This document shows positions 15,196-26,871 of a DNA stretch of 64,000 bases, piece after piece (within the stretch, counting starts at the first letter, position 1; each line of letters opens with the position of its first letter). A model generated the notes under the pieces. That model was not told the origin of the DNA. It saw only the letters and a list, made by a program, of their open reading frames with translations, and did not search any database. The position numbers were made by a program, and so were the translations under genes. This DNA is from an uncultured Oscillospiraceae bacterium (GTDB lineage: Bacteria > Bacillota > Clostridia > Oscillospirales > Oscillospiraceae), in assembly GCA_944382965.1 (NCBI GenBank), contig CALWOA010000016.1, positions 1 through 64,000 of the forward strand. The letters run 5' to 3'.

Positions 15196-17121
15196 ATGGC
15201 GGCCGGCAGCGTAGTGCAAAAATCAGCAATGGTCAAAATCAAAGAAATTGCCAGACTATCCGGTGTTTCAACTTCGACTGTGTCTAAAATCGTAAATAAC
15301 AAAGCCGATGACATCAGTCAGGAAACCATCAACAAGGTATTATCCATCGTCAAGCAGTACAATTACACCCCATATGGCATTGCGCGGAGCAATCCCGCTA
15401 AGAAAAACTTTACGATTGGTCTGCTGTTGCGGAAAATGTATCATACCAATCTGCTCATCAACGGCCTGATTCAGGTTCTGAATCAAAGCGGATATACGCT
15501 TATGCTCCTGGACAGCAACAACTCCCTGGAAATCGAAGCAAAAAACCTGTCCAAGATTGCCTATCAAAATCTGGACGGGCTGATCTGGGAGCCTGTCTGC
15601 GAGGAAAGTCTGCGCAATCGGGAGATTCTGAAAAACTGCAACACCAACATCATTTACATCGATTCCCTGTTCCAGCAGGGAGAATGCTACTTTGTCGATT
15701 ATCAGAAAATCGGCTACTTTGCCGCTTCTGCGCTGATTGAAAAAGGGCACACCAAAATCGGGTGTGTCATCCGGAATGGAAGCCGCCGTTCTACGGAAGT
15801 GGTTTCCGGATTCAAGCAGTGTCTGTTCGACAATAATATTTCCTTTACTCCGGAAATGGTGTTGTCGATGGAGAATTTTCACCTGGAATCTTTCCAGGCA
15901 GAGTCTTTTTCCGCACTGATCTCTTCCCATTTCGCCATTACCCAGGAACTGACTGTGCTGCTGGAACAGCTGAACATCTCCATCCCCTATGATCTGTCGC
16001 TGCTTTCTCTTCGGGATGACATCCGGGAAGGGCTGAATATCACAAACATTTCAACGATCAAGATCCCCTATTATGAATTCGGAACTTATCTCGGGGAAAG
16101 AATTGTGTCTGCGTGTGAAGCAAAAAAAGAAGCAAATGCGCCAAAAAACTTCGATTTTTCCCCGTCCATTGAATCTTACGTATCCATTGATGTTCCCCAC
16201 GATATGCGCCAGAAAAAAATAACCGTGGTAGGAAGTATCAATATGGACAATACCATCTACCTGGATCAGTTTCCTACCAACGGCATGACCAGTTACGCCA
16301 GAGAGTGCATCTCCTTACCCGGAGGAAAGGGATTGAACCAGGCCATCGGCGCCTCAATGCAGAAAAAAGAGGTAACGCTCATCGGCCAGATCGGAAAAGA
16401 CCCTGCCGGAAGAATGATATACAAAACTTTGGCCGATCACGGAATCGAGATTTCCTCTCTGATTACCAACGCCAATACAGAAACGGGCAAAGCATTTATC
16501 ATTGTCGATAAAATCGGCGACAGCATCATAACCGTGTTGGAGGGGGCCAATAGTTCCCTGGTTCCGGAGGACATAACCAGCCACGCCAAAGCCTTTGAAA
16601 ATACCGGCGTCTGTCTGCTGCAGACCGAGATTCCCATTGCAGTTGTGAGAGAAGCAGCCAGAATCGCCAAGCATTATCACGCCACAACCATTCTGAAGCC
16701 TTCCTCCATTGGTGAAATGACGGATGAGGATTACGAGAACATCGACATCTTTGTCCCCAACCAGAAAGAGTCCTTGCGGTTAAGCGGCAAAGACAATGTA
16801 GAAGAAGCTGCCGAATATTTCCTCTCAAAAGGCATCAAAACCATCATCATTACCCTGGATAAAGACGGAGCCTTGCTGCGCACCCAGGATACTCTGAAAT
16901 ACTATGATGCGCCTCAGGTGGACGTCATCGACGCCACCGGCGGTTCTGACGCTTTCATTTCCACCCTTGGCGCCAAGCTCCTGGATAATTATGAACTGGA
17001 TAAGGCCATCAAAGCCGCAACAATCGCTGCAGGTTTCTGTATTTCCAGATTTGGTGTATCCAATTCCATGATTGACTATGCCACGCTGGAAAGCTACATG
17101 ATCCAGAAAAACATGAAATAG
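15196..17121 (+). CDS. LacI-type regulator fused to a ribokinase-like domain
   Basis: Three-part protein, 641 aa from the first ATG. Residues 12-60 are a LacI helix-turn-helix (VKIKEIARLSGVSTSTVSK), about 68-340 a periplasmic-binding-protein-like sensor domain, and about 346-635 a complete PfkB/ribokinase fold (GGKGLNQAIGASM; end motif DATGGSDAF). The usual GAGD anion hole reads GGSD: the catalytic Asp is kept but two neighbours changed, so activity is uncertain. Start is ambiguous: ATG 15196 or 15229 (MVKIKEIA); the nearest AAAAGGAGG is about 25 bp upstream of the first. Divergent from the ribokinase-led operon it likely controls. It could sense ribose or nucleoside status through either ligand domain. 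Confidence 0.9.
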   Translation: MAAGSVVQKSAMVKIKEIARLSGVSTSTVSKIVNNKADDISQETINKVLSIVKQYNYTPYGIARSNPAKKNFTIGLLLRKMYHTNLLINGLIQVLNQSGYTLMLLDSNNSLEIEAKNLSKIAYQNLDGLIWEPVCEESLRNREILKNCNTNIIYIDSLFQQGECYFVDYQKIGYFAASALIEKGHTKIGCVIRNGSRRSTEVVSGFKQCLFDNNISFTPEMVLSMENFHLESFQAESFSALISSHFAITQELTVLLEQLNISIPYDLSLLSLRDDIREGLNITNISTIKIPYYEFGTYLGERIVSACEAKKEANAPKNFDFSPSIESYVSIDVPHDMRQKKITVVGSINMDNTIYLDQFPTNGMTSYARECISLPGGKGLNQAIGASMQKKEVTLIGQIGKDPAGRMIYKTLADHGIEISSLITNANTETGKAFIIVDKIGDSIITVLEGANSSLVPEDITSHAKAFENTGVCLLQTEIPIAVVREAARIAKHYHATTILKPSSIGEMTDEDYENIDIFVPNQKESLRLSGKDNVEEAAEYFLSKGIKTIIITLDKDGALLRTQDTLKYYDAPQVDVIDATGGSDAFISTLGAKLLDNYELDKAIKAATIAAGFCISRFGVSNSMIDYATLESYMIQKNMK

Positions 17122-20294: not shown

Positions 20295-20993
20295 TCAGCC
20301 GCCCAGGTAGGCCTTCTTCACGTCGTCGGAGCTTGCCAGCTCCGCACCGGTACCGCTGAGGGTGATCTTGCCGGTTTCCAGGACGTAAGCCCGGTCGGCA
20401 ATTTGCAGAGCCTTGCGGGCGTTCTGCTCCACCAGCAAAATGGTAGTGCCTGCCTTGTGCAGCTCCTTGATAATGGCGAAAATCTGATCCACCAGAATGG
20501 GGGCCAGGCCCATGGAAGGCTCATCCAGCATCATCAGCTTCGGATGGCTCATCAGTGCCCGGGACATGGCCAGCATCTGCTGCTCACCGCCGGACAGGGT
20601 TCCGGCAATCTGCTTGCGCCGCTCCTTCAACCGAGGGAAGTAGTTAAATACCATCTCCAGATCCGCCTGAGACACTTCCTTGTTGATGTAGGCGCCCATC
20701 TCCAAGTTCTCCTGAACGCTCATCTGCAGGAAGATCCGCCGTCCTTCCGGAACATGGGCAAGACCGGTACGCAGCAGCTTGTAAGCGTCCACATGGGTAA
20801 TGTCCTGGCCGCAGAAGGTAATGGAGCCGCTGCGGGGGTGCATCAGGCCGGACACGGTTTTCAAGATGGTGCTTTTGCCAGCACCGTTGGCACCGATCAG
20901 GGCAACGATCTCCCCTTCACCGACCTCAAAGGACACACCCTTGATGGCGTGGATGGCGCCGTAGTAAACGTGCATGTCTTCAATCTTCAGCAT
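20295..20993 (-). CDS. livF: Branched-chain amino acid ABC importer ATPase LivF
   Basis: ATPase, 232 aa, of the LIV importer. Walker A GANGAGKST, signature LSGGEQQ, Walker B LMMLDEPSMGLAP and the C-terminal LVEQNARKAL typical of LivF are all present. Its ATG overlaps the livG stop as TGATG, indicating coupled translation. Last gene of livKHMGF, 12 bp before the terminator. Confidence 0.96.
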   Translation of the reverse strand: MLKIEDMHVYYGAIHAIKGVSFEVGEGEIVALIGANGAGKSTILKTVSGLMHPRSGSITFCGQDITHVDAYKLLRTGLAHVPEGRRIFLQMSVQENLEMGAYINKEVSQADLEMVFNYFPRLKERRKQIAGTLSGGEQQMLAMSRALMSHPKLMMLDEPSMGLAPILVDQIFAIIKELHKAGTTILLVEQNARKALQIADRAYVLETGKITLSGTGAELASSDDVKKAYLGG

Positions 20994-21838
20994 CAGGCAT
21001 CCGCCTCCTCTCTGCCAAGGTAAGCTTCAATCACCGCAGGGTTCTGGCGAATCTCCTCCGGGGTGCCCTTGGCAATGATCCGGCCGTAGTTGACCACGGC
21101 GATGGCTTCACAGACGTTCATCACCAGGTTCATATCGTGCTCAATGAGGAAAATGGCGATGTGGAAGGTATCCCGGATGCGCCGGATCTGGTGCATCAGC
21201 TCGGTGGTTTCGCTGGGGTTCATACCGGCAGCAGGCTCATCCAGCAAGATGATGGAGGGGTTTGTAGCCAGTGCCCGGACAATTTCCAGCCGGCGCTGGA
21301 CACCGTAGGGCAGGCTGCCCGCCTTTTTGTCCGCCACATCCGCCAGACCCATAAAGTCCAGCAGTTCCATGGCCTTCTGATTGGCCTTTTTCTCCGCCTT
21401 GTAGTAAGAAGGCAGGTGCAGCAAGGATGACAGGAAGGAGCACTTGATTTCATTGTGCATACCCACCTTCACGTTATCCAGGGCCGTCATATCCGTAAAC
21501 AGACGGATGTTCTGGAAGGTACGGGCAATGCCCAGCTTGTTGACCTTATGGGTGGTCATGCCCTTGGTATCGATGCCGTTGATCAGAATGGAACCGCGGG
21601 TAGGCTGATACACCGAGGTCAGCAGGTTGAAGATGGTGGTCTTACCTGCGCCGTTGGGACCGATCAGTCCGGAAATCTCGGTGGGGCCGATGGTAATATT
21701 GAACCCATCCACCGCAGTCAGGCCGCCGAAGTCAATGCCCAGATTCCGGACATCCAGAACCGGCAGCTTATCTTTATCCTGTTCCCGCAGCAGAGTATAG
21801 GTGGGAACCTTCAGCATCTTTCTGGAATACTCATTCAT
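20993..21838 (-). CDS. livG: Branched-chain amino acid ABC importer ATPase LivG
   Basis: Second ATPase, 281 aa. Walker A GPNGAGKTT, a signature-region SLPYGVQRRLEI replacing the usual LSGGQ (normal for LivG), Walker B ILLDEPAAGMNP and the LIEHDMNLVM switch region. There is an N-terminal extension of about 25 residues before the NBD. Its start overlaps the livM end by 8 bp. Confidence 0.96.
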   Translation of the reverse strand: MNEYSRKMLKVPTYTLLREQDKDKLPVLDVRNLGIDFGGLTAVDGFNITIGPTEISGLIGPNGAGKTTIFNLLTSVYQPTRGSILINGIDTKGMTTHKVNKLGIARTFQNIRLFTDMTALDNVKVGMHNEIKCSFLSSLLHLPSYYKAEKKANQKAMELLDFMGLADVADKKAGSLPYGVQRRLEIVRALATNPSIILLDEPAAGMNPSETTELMHQIRRIRDTFHIAIFLIEHDMNLVMNVCEAIAVVNYGRIIAKGTPEEIRQNPAVIEAYLGREEADA

Positions 21839-22901
21839 TGGTCCCCGCCTCCTTTCTCTTGAAAATGCCGCTTACTTTGTCGGTAACCACAGACAATACT
21901 TCCTTGACCTTAGGCGACCAGGTGCAGAGCATTACCACAATCAGCACCACCGCGTACAGGATCATCCGGTAATCTTCCAGGCTCCGCAGAGCTTCCGGCA
22001 AGACGTACAGTAGCGTTGCGGAAATGACGGAACCCAGGATATTGCCCATGCCGCCCAGCACCACGAATACCAGGATGTTGATGGAGGTGTTGAAATTAAA
22101 CTTGGTTGCCGTGATGGAAGAGTAGTTCAGGCCGAACAGGGCTCCGGCCATGCCTGCCAGGAAAGCAGAAACCACAAAAGCCTTCATCCGGAAGGCGGTG
22201 ACATTGATGCCCACGGACTCGGCAGCAATCCGGTTGTCCCGGACAGCCTTGATTGCCCGGCCTTCCTTGGAGTTAATCAGATTCAGCACCACAAACAGGG
22301 TAAACAGCACCAGCACAAAGCCCATGGTGAAGGTAGCCAGTTTCTCCACACCGGTGGCGCCCAAGGGGCCGTTGATGATGTACTTTCCGCCAGCTTCCAG
22401 CTTCATCTTGCTGGTGGAAACCGCCATGTGGAAGCCTGTATCGTCAATACCGGCATAGGTATTGCCCACGATGTTTTTCATAATTTCGCCAAAGGCCAGG
22501 GTCACAATGGCCAGGTAGTCGCCCCGCAGCCGCAGCACCGGTACGCCAATGATAAAGCCCACAAAGCCTGCCAGGATGCCGCCGCCAAACATGGCGCATA
22601 CCAGCCGCAGAGCATCATTGGGAATGGTATCTTTCAGCAGCGCCGCAATCACGATGCCGGAGAAAGCGCCGATGCCCATGAAACCGGCATGGCCCAAGCT
22701 CAGCTCGCCGCAGACGCCTACCAGCAGGTTCAGCGATACCGCCAGGGAGATGTACACACAGATGGGAACCAGGTATCCCTTCATGGAGCTGCCCAGCACT
22801 CCCTGGGAATTGAGCACCTGCATCACCACAAAGGCTACAATGACCACCAGGTAAGTCAGCAGATTGGTGCGGGTATTTTTATTTTTCAGCATTGTCTTCA
22901 T
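21831..22901 (-). CDS. livM: Branched-chain amino acid ABC importer permease LivM
   Basis: Integral membrane permease, 356 aa, about 8-9 helices. Family landmarks are GELSLGHAGFMGIGAF, GVPVLRLRGDYLAIVTLAFGE (residues about 120-140) and AIRENxIAAES-type loop seen as AVRDNRIAAESVGIN. A basic N-terminal stretch precedes the first helix. Forms the channel with LivH. Confidence 0.95.
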   Translation of the reverse strand: MKTMLKNKNTRTNLLTYLVVIVAFVVMQVLNSQGVLGSSMKGYLVPICVYISLAVSLNLLVGVCGELSLGHAGFMGIGAFSGIVIAALLKDTIPNDALRLVCAMFGGGILAGFVGFIIGVPVLRLRGDYLAIVTLAFGEIMKNIVGNTYAGIDDTGFHMAVSTSKMKLEAGGKYIINGPLGATGVEKLATFTMGFVLVLFTLFVVLNLINSKEGRAIKAVRDNRIAAESVGINVTAFRMKAFVVSAFLAGMAGALFGLNYSSITATKFNFNTSINILVFVVLGGMGNILGSVISATLLYVLPEALRSLEDYRMILYAVVLIVVMLCTWSPKVKEVLSVVTDKVSGIFKRKEAGTNE

Positions 22902-22910
22902 AGCGCTACC

Positions 22911-23792
22911 TCACACCTTCTCCTGGATCTGCTTGCCCAAAAGTCCGGCAGGCTTCACCAGCAAAATGATAATCAGGACCGAGAATACAATGGCATCGGA
23001 GAACTGGGTAGACAGGTACGCCTTGGAGAAGGTCTCAATGATACCCAGCAGGATGCCACCCAGCATAGCGCCGGGGATGGAGCCGATGCCGCCAAACACC
23101 GCCGCGGTGAATGCCCGGATACCAGGCATGGAGCCGGTGGTGGGCATCAAGGTGGGGACGGTGGAACACAGCAGCACACCGGCAATGGCAGCCAGGGCCG
23201 AGCCAATGGCAAAGGTGGTGGAAATGGTCCGGTTGACGTTGATGCCCATGAGCTGGGCTGCGTCCCGGTCTTCGGACACGGCCCGCATGGCTTTACCGGT
23301 ACGGGTCTTGCTGGTAAACAGGGTCAGGCCCACCATGACCACAATGCAGGCCGCCACCGTCAGCAGCACCTCACCGGTGATAACCAGCTTGTCATCCATC
23401 AGCACAATGGGGTCCATGGTCACCACACTGGTAAAATTCTTGGGGCTGCTGGACCAGATCAGCTGGGCCGCATTCTGCAGAAAGTAGCTGACACCGATGG
23501 CGGTAATCAGCACCGCCAGGCTGGGGGTGCCCCGCAAAGGCTTGTAGGCCAGGCCTTCAATGACGATGCCCAGCACCGTACACACCACCACAGCAGCCAG
23601 TACGGAAACAAAGGACGGAAGTCCCAGATAATTGGTCACACAGAAGGATATGTAGGCGCCCACCATAATCACATCGCCGTGGGCAAAGTTCAGCATCTTG
23701 GCAATACCATAGACCATGGTATAGCCCAGCGCGATAATGGCGTAAACCGAGCCGATGCTGATGCCGTTGATCAGATACTGTAAAATCTGCAT
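22911..23792 (-). CDS. livH: Branched-chain amino acid ABC importer permease LivH
   Basis: Integral membrane permease, 293 aa, about 8 helices. The opening QYLINGISIGSVYAIIALGY and the coupling loop AVSEDRDAAQLMGINVN are typical of LivH. It follows livK after a 132-bp gap that contains a stem-loop, and livM follows 9 bp later. Confidence 0.95.
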   Translation of the reverse strand: MQILQYLINGISIGSVYAIIALGYTMVYGIAKMLNFAHGDVIMVGAYISFCVTNYLGLPSFVSVLAAVVVCTVLGIVIEGLAYKPLRGTPSLAVLITAIGVSYFLQNAAQLIWSSSPKNFTSVVTMDPIVLMDDKLVITGEVLLTVAACIVVMVGLTLFTSKTRTGKAMRAVSEDRDAAQLMGINVNRTISTTFAIGSALAAIAGVLLCSTVPTLMPTTGSMPGIRAFTAAVFGGIGSIPGAMLGGILLGIIETFSKAYLSTQFSDAIVFSVLIIILLVKPAGLLGKQIQEKV

Positions 23793-23924: not shown

Positions 23925-25136
23925 TTAATCCATGGGAACGTAAACACCGTCGGTGACAACCACGGCTGCGGGAGCCTTGGAAATCATACCGTTCTCATCC
24001 CAGGTCATGGACTTACCGGTCAGGCCATCGAAGGTCATGCCAGCGAACTGCTCCTGCAGCATAGCGCAGGCTTCCTCAGCAGGAGTATTGCCGTCGATAC
24101 CGGCAGCCACGCAAGCGTTGTACAGAGCGTAGATGACATCGTAGCCATCAGCAGCGAACTGGTTGGGCACCTTGCCATCGTTGTTTTCCTTGAACTGAGT
24201 CACGAAGGAAACGGTAGCATCGTCGGTAGCGTTGGCATCGAAGGGAGTCATCAGAACCAGACCCTCAGCCAGGGAGGTGTCAAAGCCTTCCACGTTCAGA
24301 ATGCCGTCCATGCCGTCGCAGCCGAAGAAGGTGGGCTTATAGCCAACGGTGTTGGCGTAGGTCAGGACCTGAGAAGCCTCGGTGTAGTAGAAGGGCAGGA
24401 ACACCAGGTCGCAGCCAGCGTCCTTGCACTTGGTAACCTGAGTGGACAGGTCGGACTTGTTGTCAGCGGTGAAAGATGCATCGCTGACTGCCACATTCAG
24501 GCCCAGCTCCTCAGCCTTGGCCAGGAAGCCTTCCACAATACCGGAAGAGTATGGATCGGAGGAGTCATAAATCACACCAATGGTGGCATCCGGCCACTTC
24601 TGAGACATCAGCTCAGCAGCGGAAGCGCCCTGGTTGGGGTCGGTGAAGCACATCTGGTAGATGTTGGAGCCGGTCATAGCCACGTCCACAGCAGAAGCTG
24701 AGGGAGTCAGCATGAAGATCTGGTCATTGGCAGCCTCAGCAGCGATGGCCAGGGAGGAGCCGGTGGTCACAGCGCCGGCGAAGATCTGCATGCCCCAGTC
24801 CTTCAGGGTGTTGTAAGCGGAAACCGCCTTGTCGGAGCCGTCGGCTTCGTCGTCTTCTGCCTTGAAGTCGATCTGCAGGCCGCCCTTGGCATTGATCTCA
24901 GCCACGGCAATTTCCATGCCGCCCCGGACAGCCAGGCCGTACTCGGAAGTACCGCCGGTGAGGGGGCCGGTCAGGCCGATCTTAATAGCGGGAGCGGAAC
25001 CATCGGCAGCAGCGGCCTGGGTTTCACCGGAGTTATTGGCAGCAGCCTGAGTTTCCTTGGGCTCAGAAGCGCCGCAGCCTGCGAACACGGAAGCTACCAT
25101 CAGGCAAGCCAGCAGCAAAGCAACAAACTTTTTCAT
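23925..25136 (-). CDS. livK: Branched-chain amino acid-binding lipoprotein LivK
   Basis: Extracellular binding protein, 403 aa. Lipoprotein signal with Cys21 (SVFAGC), a short Ala/Glu/Gln-rich linker, then a two-lobe type I periplasmic-binding fold (IKIGLTGPLTGGTSEYGLA; DGYDVIYALYNAC). AAAGGAG precedes the ATG. First structural gene of livKHMGF and placed 37 bp after the leader terminator. Ligand specificity within branched-chain or related amino acids is not certain. Confidence 0.94.
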   Translation of the reverse strand: MKKFVALLLACLMVASVFAGCGASEPKETQAAANNSGETQAAAADGSAPAIKIGLTGPLTGGTSEYGLAVRGGMEIAVAEINAKGGLQIDFKAEDDEADGSDKAVSAYNTLKDWGMQIFAGAVTTGSSLAIAAEAANDQIFMLTPSASAVDVAMTGSNIYQMCFTDPNQGASAAELMSQKWPDATIGVIYDSSDPYSSGIVEGFLAKAEELGLNVAVSDASFTADNKSDLSTQVTKCKDAGCDLVFLPFYYTEASQVLTYANTVGYKPTFFGCDGMDGILNVEGFDTSLAEGLVLMTPFDANATDDATVSFVTQFKENNDGKVPNQFAADGYDVIYALYNACVAAGIDGNTPAEEACAMLQEQFAGMTFDGLTGKSMTWDENGMISKAPAAVVVTDGVYVPMD

Positions 25137-25169
25137 AACATGTTCTCCTTTTCTCGTCCAAAATACTAT

Positions 25170-25200
25170 AAAAAAGCGGCTAGCATTTTTGCAGCCGCTT
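25170..25200 (-). terminator. Leader terminator upstream of livK
   Basis: Arms AAGCGGCT (25174-25181) and AGCCGCTT (25193-25200) around an 11-nt loop. On the minus strand the hairpin runs directly into CTTTTTTAT. It lies after the leader peptide stop and before the livK ribosome site, as expected of an attenuator terminator. Confidence 0.8.
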
Positions 25201-25232
25201 CTTCATACAAACAGAATCCCCGGCCGCAGTTT

Positions 25233-25376
25233 CTATCTCGGAACCTCTATACGGTCAACGCAAATGGACACTACCGACAACAAGGCAGTGTCCAAATGGG
25301 GGCAAATCCGCCCAGAGGAATATGCCGCTGCGCAGCAGCGGGAATCAGCAAAATCAAACTCAGACCATGCCTTCAT
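25233..25376 (-). CDS. Leader peptide of the liv operon, 47 aa
   Basis: Starts MKAWSEFDFADSRCCAAAY and ends DRIEVPR. The ATG at 25376 has AAGGAGG 9 nt upstream and lies about 25 nt after the predicted transcription start. The segment HLDTALLSVVSICVDRIEV has nine Leu/Val/Ile residues in 18-19 positions. The Leu-Leu-Ser-Val-Val codons lie within a stable stem-loop (25265-25294), followed by a terminator. This arrangement matches ribosome-mediated attenuation by branched-chain amino acid supply. The peptide itself probably has no other role. Not a family I recognise. Confidence 0.65.
   Translation of the reverse strand: MKAWSEFDFADSRCCAAAYSSGRICPHLDTALLSVVSICVDRIEVPR
25265..25294 (-). promoter_or_regulatory. 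Leader stem-loop covering the Leu/Val codons
   Basis: 11-bp arms, TGGACACTACC (25265-25275) and GGCAGTGTCCA (25284-25294), one G.U pair, 8-nt loop. It includes the ACT GCC TTG TTG TCG GTA GTG codons of the leader peptide. Confidence 0.7.
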
Positions 25377-25406
25377 ATGCATATACCTCCTTCCGAATCT
25401 GGAAGT

Positions 25407-25435
25407 ATTGTATCTCACACAAGGACATTTGTCAA
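25407..25435 (-). promoter_or_regulatory. Promoter of the liv leader and operon
   Basis: Minus strand TTGACA (25435-25430), 17-bp spacer, TACAAT (25412-25407). It is a near-consensus promoter, so control by termination rather than initiation is plausible. Confidence 0.8.
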
Positions 25436-25497: not shown

Positions 25498-26871
25498 TTA
25501 TTCCCCGTCCATCACCGCTTTGCAGGCGCTGAGTACTTTGCTCAAAATCGGCACGCAGGTATGGCTGCCGTAGCCGCCATTTTCCACCACCACAATGAAG
25601 GCCAGGGGGTATTCTTCGTTCTCCACGAACCCGGCGAACATGGCGTTGGAAACTTCGCTGCCGCCCAGCTGGCTGGTGCCGGACTTGGCACACACCGACA
25701 GCCCCGGGAAGTTGCCGTCGCCGTAGACTGCCTGCACATTGTTGCGCATGTACTGGCGCACCGTGGCAGCGGTTTCCTCGGACATGATCCGGTCACTGTA
25801 CTGGGTTTTGGCCTGGTAGGTCACCTGGCCGCCGTTGGTCACCTGCTCCATCAGGTAGGGCATGGCCCCCTTACCGCCGCCGGCGATGGCGCCCATAAAG
25901 GCCATATATCGGGCCGGATTGATCTGGTCGGTATGCTGACCGATACAGCTCCAGGCAAAGGATACCGTAGCGGTATCGGAAACATCATAATTTCCTTTCA
26001 CCGTGGTCACACCGTCGAAGGACAGGGGTTTGACTACCTCAAATTTATCCACATACTTGACCATGTTCTGCTTGCCGATCAGCTCCGCCACTTGGGCAAA
26101 GGCACAGTTACAGGAGTTCGCGAAAGCTTGACGCAGATTTTGCTGACCATGGGCCTTTTCACAGGTAACCGCCTCCGTACCGTATTCCCGTTTACCATCG
26201 CAGCTGAATGTCCGGTCTAAAATATCAGGCACGGTTTCCAGCGCCGTGGCTACCGTCACAATTTTAAAAATGGAGCCGGGGACGTAGGCAGACTGCAAAA
26301 ACCGGTTCAGGTACACGCCGTCATAGGCGCCGCTGGTATCGTTTGCAATATCCGGCACGTTGTCAGGGTCAAACGTGGGGGAAGTCACGGCGCAGAGAAT
26401 TTCTCCGGTTTTGTAGTTGTACACGCCAATGGTGCCCTTCCGGTTGCCCAGGGCTTCCAGTGCAGCATTCTGCACCGCAGCGGACAAGGTCACTCTGGCG
26501 GTTCCTCCTTCGCCGGAAGCATCATAAATTCCGTTGAACAGGTCAAAGCCCGCCATCTGACCGGCGTAGTTGGTAACTGCCGAAGCCTTGATAAATCCAT
26601 CCCGGTCTCCCAGCCAGTGAAGGGTAGACTTCCGGGTAAGGGCATCGGAAGCGTAGGTTCTGCTTTCGGTAATGTCCAGCAGCATGGTTCCGGATCGATC
26701 TGTCACCGTACCGCAGCCTAAGTTGGAGCTGTTGTACACATGAGGCGATCCGGAAAATCCCACCCACTGGTCAGCCTCCGTCAGATACTCCCAGAGAAAA
26801 AACAGCATGCCTCCCAGCAGCAGAATAATAAACAGGCTCATGAGCCAGGTTCTTTTGGTCACACGATTCAT
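25498..26871 (-). CDS. Penicillin-binding transpeptidase (PbpA/FtsI class)
   Basis: Membrane-anchored D,D-transpeptidase crosslinking peptidoglycan outside the cell, 457 aa. One N-terminal membrane helix (10-30), then a dimerisation-type region and a transpeptidase domain with SIFK at 200-203, SCN at 253-255 and KSG at 396-398 (KTG is more usual). It follows the FtsW/RodA fusion gene after 4 bp, so it is very likely the dedicated class B PBP partner of that SEDS polymerase. Confidence 0.93.
   Translation of the reverse strand: MNRVTKRTWLMSLFIILLLGGMLFFLWEYLTEADQWVGFSGSPHVYNSSNLGCGTVTDRSGTMLLDITESRTYASDALTRKSTLHWLGDRDGFIKASAVTNYAGQMAGFDLFNGIYDASGEGGTARVTLSAAVQNAALEALGNRKGTIGVYNYKTGEILCAVTSPTFDPDNVPDIANDTSGAYDGVYLNRFLQSAYVPGSIFKIVTVATALETVPDILDRTFSCDGKREYGTEAVTCEKAHGQQNLRQAFANSCNCAFAQVAELIGKQNMVKYVDKFEVVKPLSFDGVTTVKGNYDVSDTATVSFAWSCIGQHTDQINPARYMAFMGAIAGGGKGAMPYLMEQVTNGGQVTYQAKTQYSDRIMSEETAATVRQYMRNNVQAVYGDGNFPGLSVCAKSGTSQLGGSEVSNAMFAGFVENEEYPLAFIVVVENGGYGSHTCVPILSKVLSACKAVMDGE

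Follow-up and report, generated by a model that had tools for sequence, protein, structure and literature searches.

Leader-peptide attenuation is a classical switch, best known from amino acid synthesis genes. The ilvGMEDA, ilvBN, and leu attenuators of Escherichia coli were described, in the accessible part of the source, as combining leader peptides rich in branched-chain amino acids (BCAA) with mutually exclusive hairpins, and BCAA leaders were also reported there for Listeria, Lactococcus, Streptococcus, and Corynebacterium (PMC6123439). In sources that were likewise accessible in part, the ilv-leu biosynthetic operon of Staphylococcus aureus was described as controlled by a Leu-rich leader attenuator together with CodY (PMC5794164), and leaders of ilvB, leuA, and leuS were described in Actinobacteria (PMC1262725). 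In the literature covered, mostly without subscription journals and partly in excerpt, BCAA leader attenuators preceded synthesis genes or leuS, Firmicute leader peptides preceded hisS/hisZ (PMC5794164, PMC6123439, PMC2965389, PMC8632094, PMC1262725), and no BCAA leader attenuator was found before a BCAA importer.

The leader described here lies upstream of livKHMGF in the genome of an Oscillospiraceae gut bacterium; the window, that is, the whole stretch of DNA analysed, is 64,000 nt long, and all parts of the attenuator are on its minus strand. Comparison with related sequences indicates that the leader is very probably a ribosome-mediated transcription attenuator, which senses charged Leu, Ile, and Val tRNAs and controls livKHMGF. 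Like the S. aureus ilv-leu attenuator, as far as the latter is described in the accessible text, it belongs to a Firmicute and consists of a leader peptide with BCAA codons and a terminator opposed by an antiterminator; the S. aureus operon is biosynthetic and also under CodY, whereas here the target is an ABC importer in a genome without a CodY match. The E. coli attenuators share the BCAA-rich leader peptide and the mutually exclusive hairpins but, according to the same partial sources, serve biosynthesis in a Gram-negative host. The leaders of Listeria and other Gram-positive genera, including those of Actinobacteria, similarly have BCAA-rich frames, mostly with terminators, but in the excerpts covered they precede synthesis or tRNA-synthetase genes, with no importer among them. 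T-box leaders likewise respond to uncharged tRNA and work through a terminator, but do so by direct binding of the tRNA, without translation. Premature termination has reportedly been seen at E. coli livJ. It is, in all likelihood, a real attenuator of classical mode, with an unusual target and host lineage; the target, the lineage, and the division of labor with a T-box (see below) appear new, although priority is not claimed.

The livKHMGF locus and its relatives

The best models for the five downstream proteins, all encoded on the minus strand, were LivK, LivH, LivM, LivG, and LivF, with every score under the curated cut-off: the substrate-binding lipoprotein LivK (23925..25136, with its start at 25136; PRK15404, 3e-30), the permeases LivH (22911..23792; PRK10740, 4.5e-74) and LivM (21831..22901; PRK11301, 2.6e-50), and the ATPases LivG (20993..21838; PRK11300, 1.5e-94) and LivF (20295..20993; PRK11614, 5.4e-85). 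LivK also matched solved Leu/Ile/Val-binding proteins (3td9, 1e-24; 2liv, 7e-23; 1z15, 1e-22), and its substrate is likely a BCAA. Elsewhere in the window, a single frame (15196-17121, plus strand) resembles, from its translation alone, a LacI-type regulator combined with a ribokinase-like (PfkB) domain.

On the far side of the gap from livK, a putative penicillin-binding protein gene was recognized by reading (25498-26871). The gap itself contains a promoter, TTGACA-17-TACAAT (25435-25407, minus strand), which has 11 of the 12 consensus bases and is kept in relatives, followed by the ribosome binding site AAGGAGG (25386..25392, minus strand) and a leader frame, translated by reading, of 47 codons and a TAG stop (25376-25233, minus strand; stop at 25235-25233). 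The GGAGG is placed 9 nt upstream of the ATG at 25376; an alternative in-frame ATG at 25382 is merely 3 nt past it. These elements had been proposed, with correct coordinates, in a preliminary description of the locus made from the sequence alone. A promoter scan of 7 kb returned five such sites, compared with 4.0 expected by chance, so that the scan by itself is weak evidence for the promoter.

Relatives were collected by a contig scan, from which the best 80 of 317 related places were kept, and by a DNA search of 99 genomes, which added loci. Related loci are given L numbers and genomes G numbers, with G000 denoting the window's own genome. Among the best 80 of 317, the nearest relatives were Candidatus Faecousia and other Oscillospiraceae metagenome-assembled genomes (MAGs), and the same layout was found upstream of livK homologues in a Faecousia-like genus of the Oscillospiraceae. 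In most related livK loci the promoter reads TTGACAAATGTC...TACAAT, and the exact pattern occurs in a single copy in the window's own genome. Over the collected loci, a promoter pattern was found at 55 places, which left 39 distinct upstream sequences after removal of 14 copies and of L016 and L036, where no livK start was in reach; it missed L022 and L104. A leader frame preceded by a ribosome site was recognized by comparison in 37 of these 39, the exceptions being L020 and L031, and similar purine-rich sites were seen upstream of the relatives' frames. The livK loci lacking the frame, identified partly by reading, were L016, L020, L031, L036 (identical to L192), L104, and L202, and at L155 a decayed leader lies upstream of a livK-like start at the contig end. 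Conservation of the promoter was found to extend past the hexamers (TTGACAAATGT...TACAAT), including at all of these loci without a leader frame except the redundant L192; the extended conservation is possibly an operator.

Codon content of the leader

For codon counts, the 37 distinct leaders with a frame were reduced to 32 by dropping those at least 85% alike. A sharp contrast between the two parts of the frame emerged from the comparison. Upstream of the segment designated 1 (see below), only 20 of 616 residues (3.2%) were Leu, Ile, or Val, as against 166/616 and 138/616 in the two other frames and 134.7 ± 9.6 of 616 in shuffled sequences, none of which (0/2000) was as low. Past the inner hairpin, as far as the stop, the three residues made up 166 of 355 (46.8%), and in the inner-hairpin stretch 167 of 345. 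Over these comparisons, other frames gave 13-27%. When the last 20 codons were taken instead, Leu/Ile/Val reached 48.9%, compared with 10.8% of the remainder, 13.4% and 18.0% when the same stretch was read in the other frames, and 26.0 ± 1.6% in stop-free shuffles (0/2000 at the observed level); the baseline of eight window genes was 25.5%. Five leaders outside both the 37 and the 32 sets (L022, L123, L152, L153, and L154) agreed, with 4/107 before and 43/70 after. Counted by region, BCAA codons are excluded from the run-up and packed where a stalled ribosome would matter. Such scarcity of BCAA codons ahead of the switch could serve as a simple signature for finding other leaders of this kind in genomes that lack expression data.

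The preliminary description had highlighted the Leu-Leu-Ser-Val-Val codons. BCAA codons are indeed present there, and Leu, Val, and Ile codons are strongly kept in relatives, but the counts from the 32 leaders suggest that the sensing zone begins with the inner hairpin and extends as far as the stop (25236..25294, minus strand), rather than comprising these five codons alone.

A hydrophobic tail behind a good ribosome site, which is retained in relatives, would also be expected of a small functional membrane peptide followed by an ordinary constitutive terminator. This explanation is highly improbable, as the enrichment in the tail is confined to Leu, Ile, and Val: Phe/Met/Trp/Tyr fall to 5.0% in the last 20 codons from 11.0% in the remainder, and Ala/Gly to 15.8% from 21.8%. 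The tail is, therefore, not simply hydrophobic, and these depletions are not expected of a membrane segment. Substitutions among 14 close, partly overlapping leader pairs were even over the codon positions (154, 136, and 155), with none of the third-position excess that a functional peptide should leave; in these pairs, no purifying selection was detected on the sequence of the peptide itself. The link between the stop codon and segment 2 and the presence of alternative pairings, both described below, also argue against a membrane peptide. Under attenuation, a peptide sequence that is not conserved would be expected if codon content alone counts, and it constitutes no independent proof of translation.

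Translation of the leader might instead report another signal, such as a ribosome-stalling drug, a different amino acid, or a general slowing of translation. Cysteine is the obvious candidate among amino acids, accounting for 7.2% of the first part of the leader and 4.7% of the last 20 codons, compared with 1.6% in the eight window genes, and for 27 of 355 residues past hairpin 2. In the tail, Leu/Ile/Val exceed Cys by about six to one; their codons are nearly absent where a stall would be remote from segment 2 and concentrated where a stall matters, and the genes controlled encode a LIV-type importer, which together make a different signal very unlikely. The sensing of charged BCAA-tRNAs is the reading retained below. 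The Cys richness of the first part, together with hairpin 1, falls outside the proposed model.

Hairpins and competing pairings

The folded region 25402-25130 was more stable than every one of 200 shuffles (z -4.5). Within it, hairpin 1 (CCGCTGC/GCAGCGG; 25325..25341, minus strand) lies in the codons for SRCCAA and has a predicted stability of -12 kcal/mol, which 3 of 200 shuffles equaled; in 27 leaders, the two arms fitted each other better when taken from one species than when mixed between species (z -2.7, 9/5000 permutations). Hairpin 2, the inner 11-bp stem-loop and a possible pause hairpin (25265..25294, minus strand), lies in the codons for LDTALLSVVSI. Its region (25255-25310) folds with -21.8 kcal/mol, equaled by none of 200 shuffles, and its matched arms paired better than swapped ones (z -4.5, 0/5000), which bears out the stem-loop noted earlier.

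The conservation of both hairpins, and that of the extended promoter, could suggest a ligand-binding riboswitch or a protein-binding leader in which the reading frame arose by chance. This is exceedingly improbable: no Rfam family was matched at the gathering threshold, and hairpin 2 is missing, by reading of the alignment, from L021, L024, and L099, yet their Leu/Ile/Val codons were retained. The livK RNA motif of Pseudomonas is located before livK; the window gave no Rfam match to it, a result that is meaningful only if this family was among the scanned models.

An intrinsic terminator hairpin formed by segments 3 and 4, with a T-run at 25175-25170, was identified by folding and alignment at 25207-25167 (minus strand), between the leader stop and livK, where the preliminary description had placed it. 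The region 25163-25220 folds with -23.9 kcal/mol (z -5.0), and none of 200 shuffles was equally stable; a simple terminator scan, which returned six sites compared with 7.0 expected, did not list it. In a structural alignment of the 3′ part of the 37 leaders (36 distinct rows), 94.2% of the terminator cells were paired, and both-side changes occurred in 29 cells compared with 4.3 in shuffles. RNAalifold returned the terminator as the sole structure of the leader alignment.

The candidate antiterminator pairs segment 2 (25221..25228, minus strand), its 5′ strand, with segment 3 (25190..25197, minus strand), which is common to antiterminator and terminator; both were delimited by pairing tests, and a ribosome positioned on the leader stop can reach segment 2. 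In the window, the pairing of 25228-25221 with 25197-25190 comprises 8 bp and -16.6 kcal/mol (2/200 shuffles equally stable). Across relatives, the stem joins a GTAACCG-like sequence at the leader stop to a CGGTTAC-like sequence in the 5′ arm of the terminator, with an upper CTTCAT/ATGAAG stem. The 2:3 pairing was formed in 80.0% of cells, with values of 89.7% for the lower helix and 66.0% for the upper, and sliding it by 1-3 columns lowered this to at most 49.7%. The excess over shuffles was narrow for paired cells (78.4% in shuffles; 5/500 as high) and clearer for cells with both-side changes (19 compared with 9.7) and for the score (0.218 compared with 0.186), which no shuffle (0/500) reached. 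No excess was found for pairs with both-side changes (5 compared with 4.9; 320/500 as high) or for further pair types (17 compared with 19.3; 489/500 as high). Covariation in the 2:3 antiterminator was moderate.

Segment 1 (25294..25314, minus strand), when free of a ribosome, was proposed as a partner of segment 2 from an arm-swap test. In this test of 32 leaders, matched arms paired better than swapped arms for 1:2 (z -4.0), 2:3 (z -5.7), and 3:4 (z -6.9), each with 0/5000, as against z values of -1.4, +1.7, and +0.9 for three control arm combinations from the same leaders. Relatedness can inflate arm-swap tests, and the controls, drawn from the same sequences, argue against relatedness as the whole cause. 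In L030, L009, and L029, the 1:2 pairs were rewritten and still match. No single 1:2 register paired well throughout the alignment, which limits the 1:2 claim to the per-sequence test, and the pairing was weak in folds of truncated transcripts.

A different antiterminator had been proposed earlier, between AGCGGC in hairpin 1 and GCCGCT in the terminator. The two are complementary (25329-25324 with 25180-25175, by reading); as an antiterminator the pair was rejected, since matched arms had no advantage over swapped ones among the 27 leaders compared (z +1.3).

Position of the stop codon and ribosome masking

In the compared sequences, the position of the leader stop was counted from the first nucleotide of the segment 2 core: the stop begins at +1 nt in 19 of the 32 leaders, and none of the 32 falls outside the range -13 to +1; in the window it is at -8, by reading. 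The consequence of ribosome position was calculated with a ribosome-sized mask on truncated transcripts, at equilibrium and with kinetics ignored. With the mask at the stop, at least five 2:3 pairs were retained in 3 of 32 leaders, compared with 17 of 32 when the mask was two codons upstream and 26-29 of 32 when it was at least four codons upstream. These calculations support a mechanism in which termination would be favored once the leader is finished, and read-through once the ribosome stalls. In the absence of a ribosome, the truncated transcript formed 2:3 in 27/32 leaders, which renders a 1:2 state doubtful.

In the proposed mechanism, transcription would start at the promoter and a ribosome would load on the leader, crossing a run-up nearly without BCAA codons before it enters the BCAA-rich zone. 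When charged BCAA-tRNAs are plentiful, the ribosome would reach the stop and cover segment 2, so that segment 3 would pair with segment 4 and bring transcription to an end before livK. When one of these tRNAs is short, the ribosome is expected to stall upstream of segment 2, allowing the 2:3 pairing to form and RNA polymerase to continue into the importer genes. If the leader is not translated, a 1:2 pairing that encloses hairpin 2 may put segment 2 out of action.

Distribution of the leader

A covariance model was built from the 37 leaders, so that most of the matching leaders are training members and match by construction. Searched against 149 genomes, the model gave 32 matches with E-values no higher than 1e-8, every one in the window's own genus; 24 of the 32 fall within the 61 genus members G000-G060, assuming that all 61 were searched. 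A livK homologue follows directly, on the contig and strand of the match, in 31 of the 32 cases, at 26-39 nt in 30 of them and at 337 nt in G118, where the livK protein match starts only at residue 84. G060 has a model match, yet is absent among the livK matches listed at an E-value of 1e-90. A livK homologue of this kind was present in 39 of 101 genus genomes. The genus supplies more than 30 natural leader variants, losses included.

In samples of the family (300 genomes, E-value 1e-6) and of the order (295 genomes, E-value 1e-5), matches were found only in G000 and G001, both of the window's own genus; these searches used even sampling, the stricter filters of Infernal, and at most 10 scored candidates per genome, so that weak relatives can be missed. 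The leader is also carried by L024, which is recorded as Pseudoflavonifractor sp. MSJ-30, and a limit to one genus is, therefore, not proved. Among 12 regions at weaker model matches, L153 and L154 are upstream of livK-type genes, one is the decayed L155, and the remaining nine were judged by eye not to be leader-like. At 42 other livK loci, mostly from Gemmiger and Flavonifractor, no frame exceeded 0.4 Leu/Ile/Val by the tail measure.

Two proposed sensors of tRNA charging

At the gathering threshold, an Rfam scan of the window matched one tRNA and no T-box or other family, which indicates that no T-box is present there, in line with the preliminary description. CodY gave no match in the genome (90.8% complete), in a search whose control was positive in B. 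subtilis and L. lactis. The conserved codons, the lack of a T-box match in the window, and the lack of a CodY match in the genome support the reading as a BCAA attenuator.

T-boxes are present elsewhere in G000, with eight matches, two of them above the cut-off; none of the eight is the window leader. One of the eight (76.3 bits, with a cut-off of 93) lies upstream of a row of ilv-leu genes, ilvA, leuA, leuC, leuD, leuB, ilvB, ilvN, ilvC, and ilvD, of which ilvD was identified by a model and the others by reading of translations. Set against two other T-boxes, which precede genes read as ileS and thrS and have the specifiers AUC and ACC, its own specifier was read as CUG (Leu). The T-box is apparently Leu-specific and would control the whole row.

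It seems reasonably probable that the BCAA supply of the genus is under two sensors of tRNA charging, a Leu T-box for synthesis and a translated leader for all three BCAAs for import. On this view, the leader would have originated or expanded inside the genus at a promoter already in place; selection would have favored BCAA codons in the sensing zone and disfavored them in the run-up, confining stalls to where they are helpful. A BCAA attenuator would stand before an importer, in Clostridia, and in a genome whose synthesis genes are preceded by a T-box, whereas the known ones, in the partial literature covered, precede synthesis genes (in Streptomyces also leuS). This split between T-box and leader offers a clean test of why the same tRNAs get sensed in two ways.

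Three livK loci, L050, L053, and L077, gave no match in an Rfam scan at the gathering threshold. In L077 (4712-5003), from a red-deer gut MAG, a Leu/Ile/Val-rich leader frame and a terminator were noticed by eye before livK; this leader is unlike that of the window and possibly represents a second origin of such control. In L050, from another Oscillospiraceae MAG, a T-box-like GGTGGTACCGCG was seen by eye within the 330 nt before livK (start 5001), and the livK importer may be under T-box control there.
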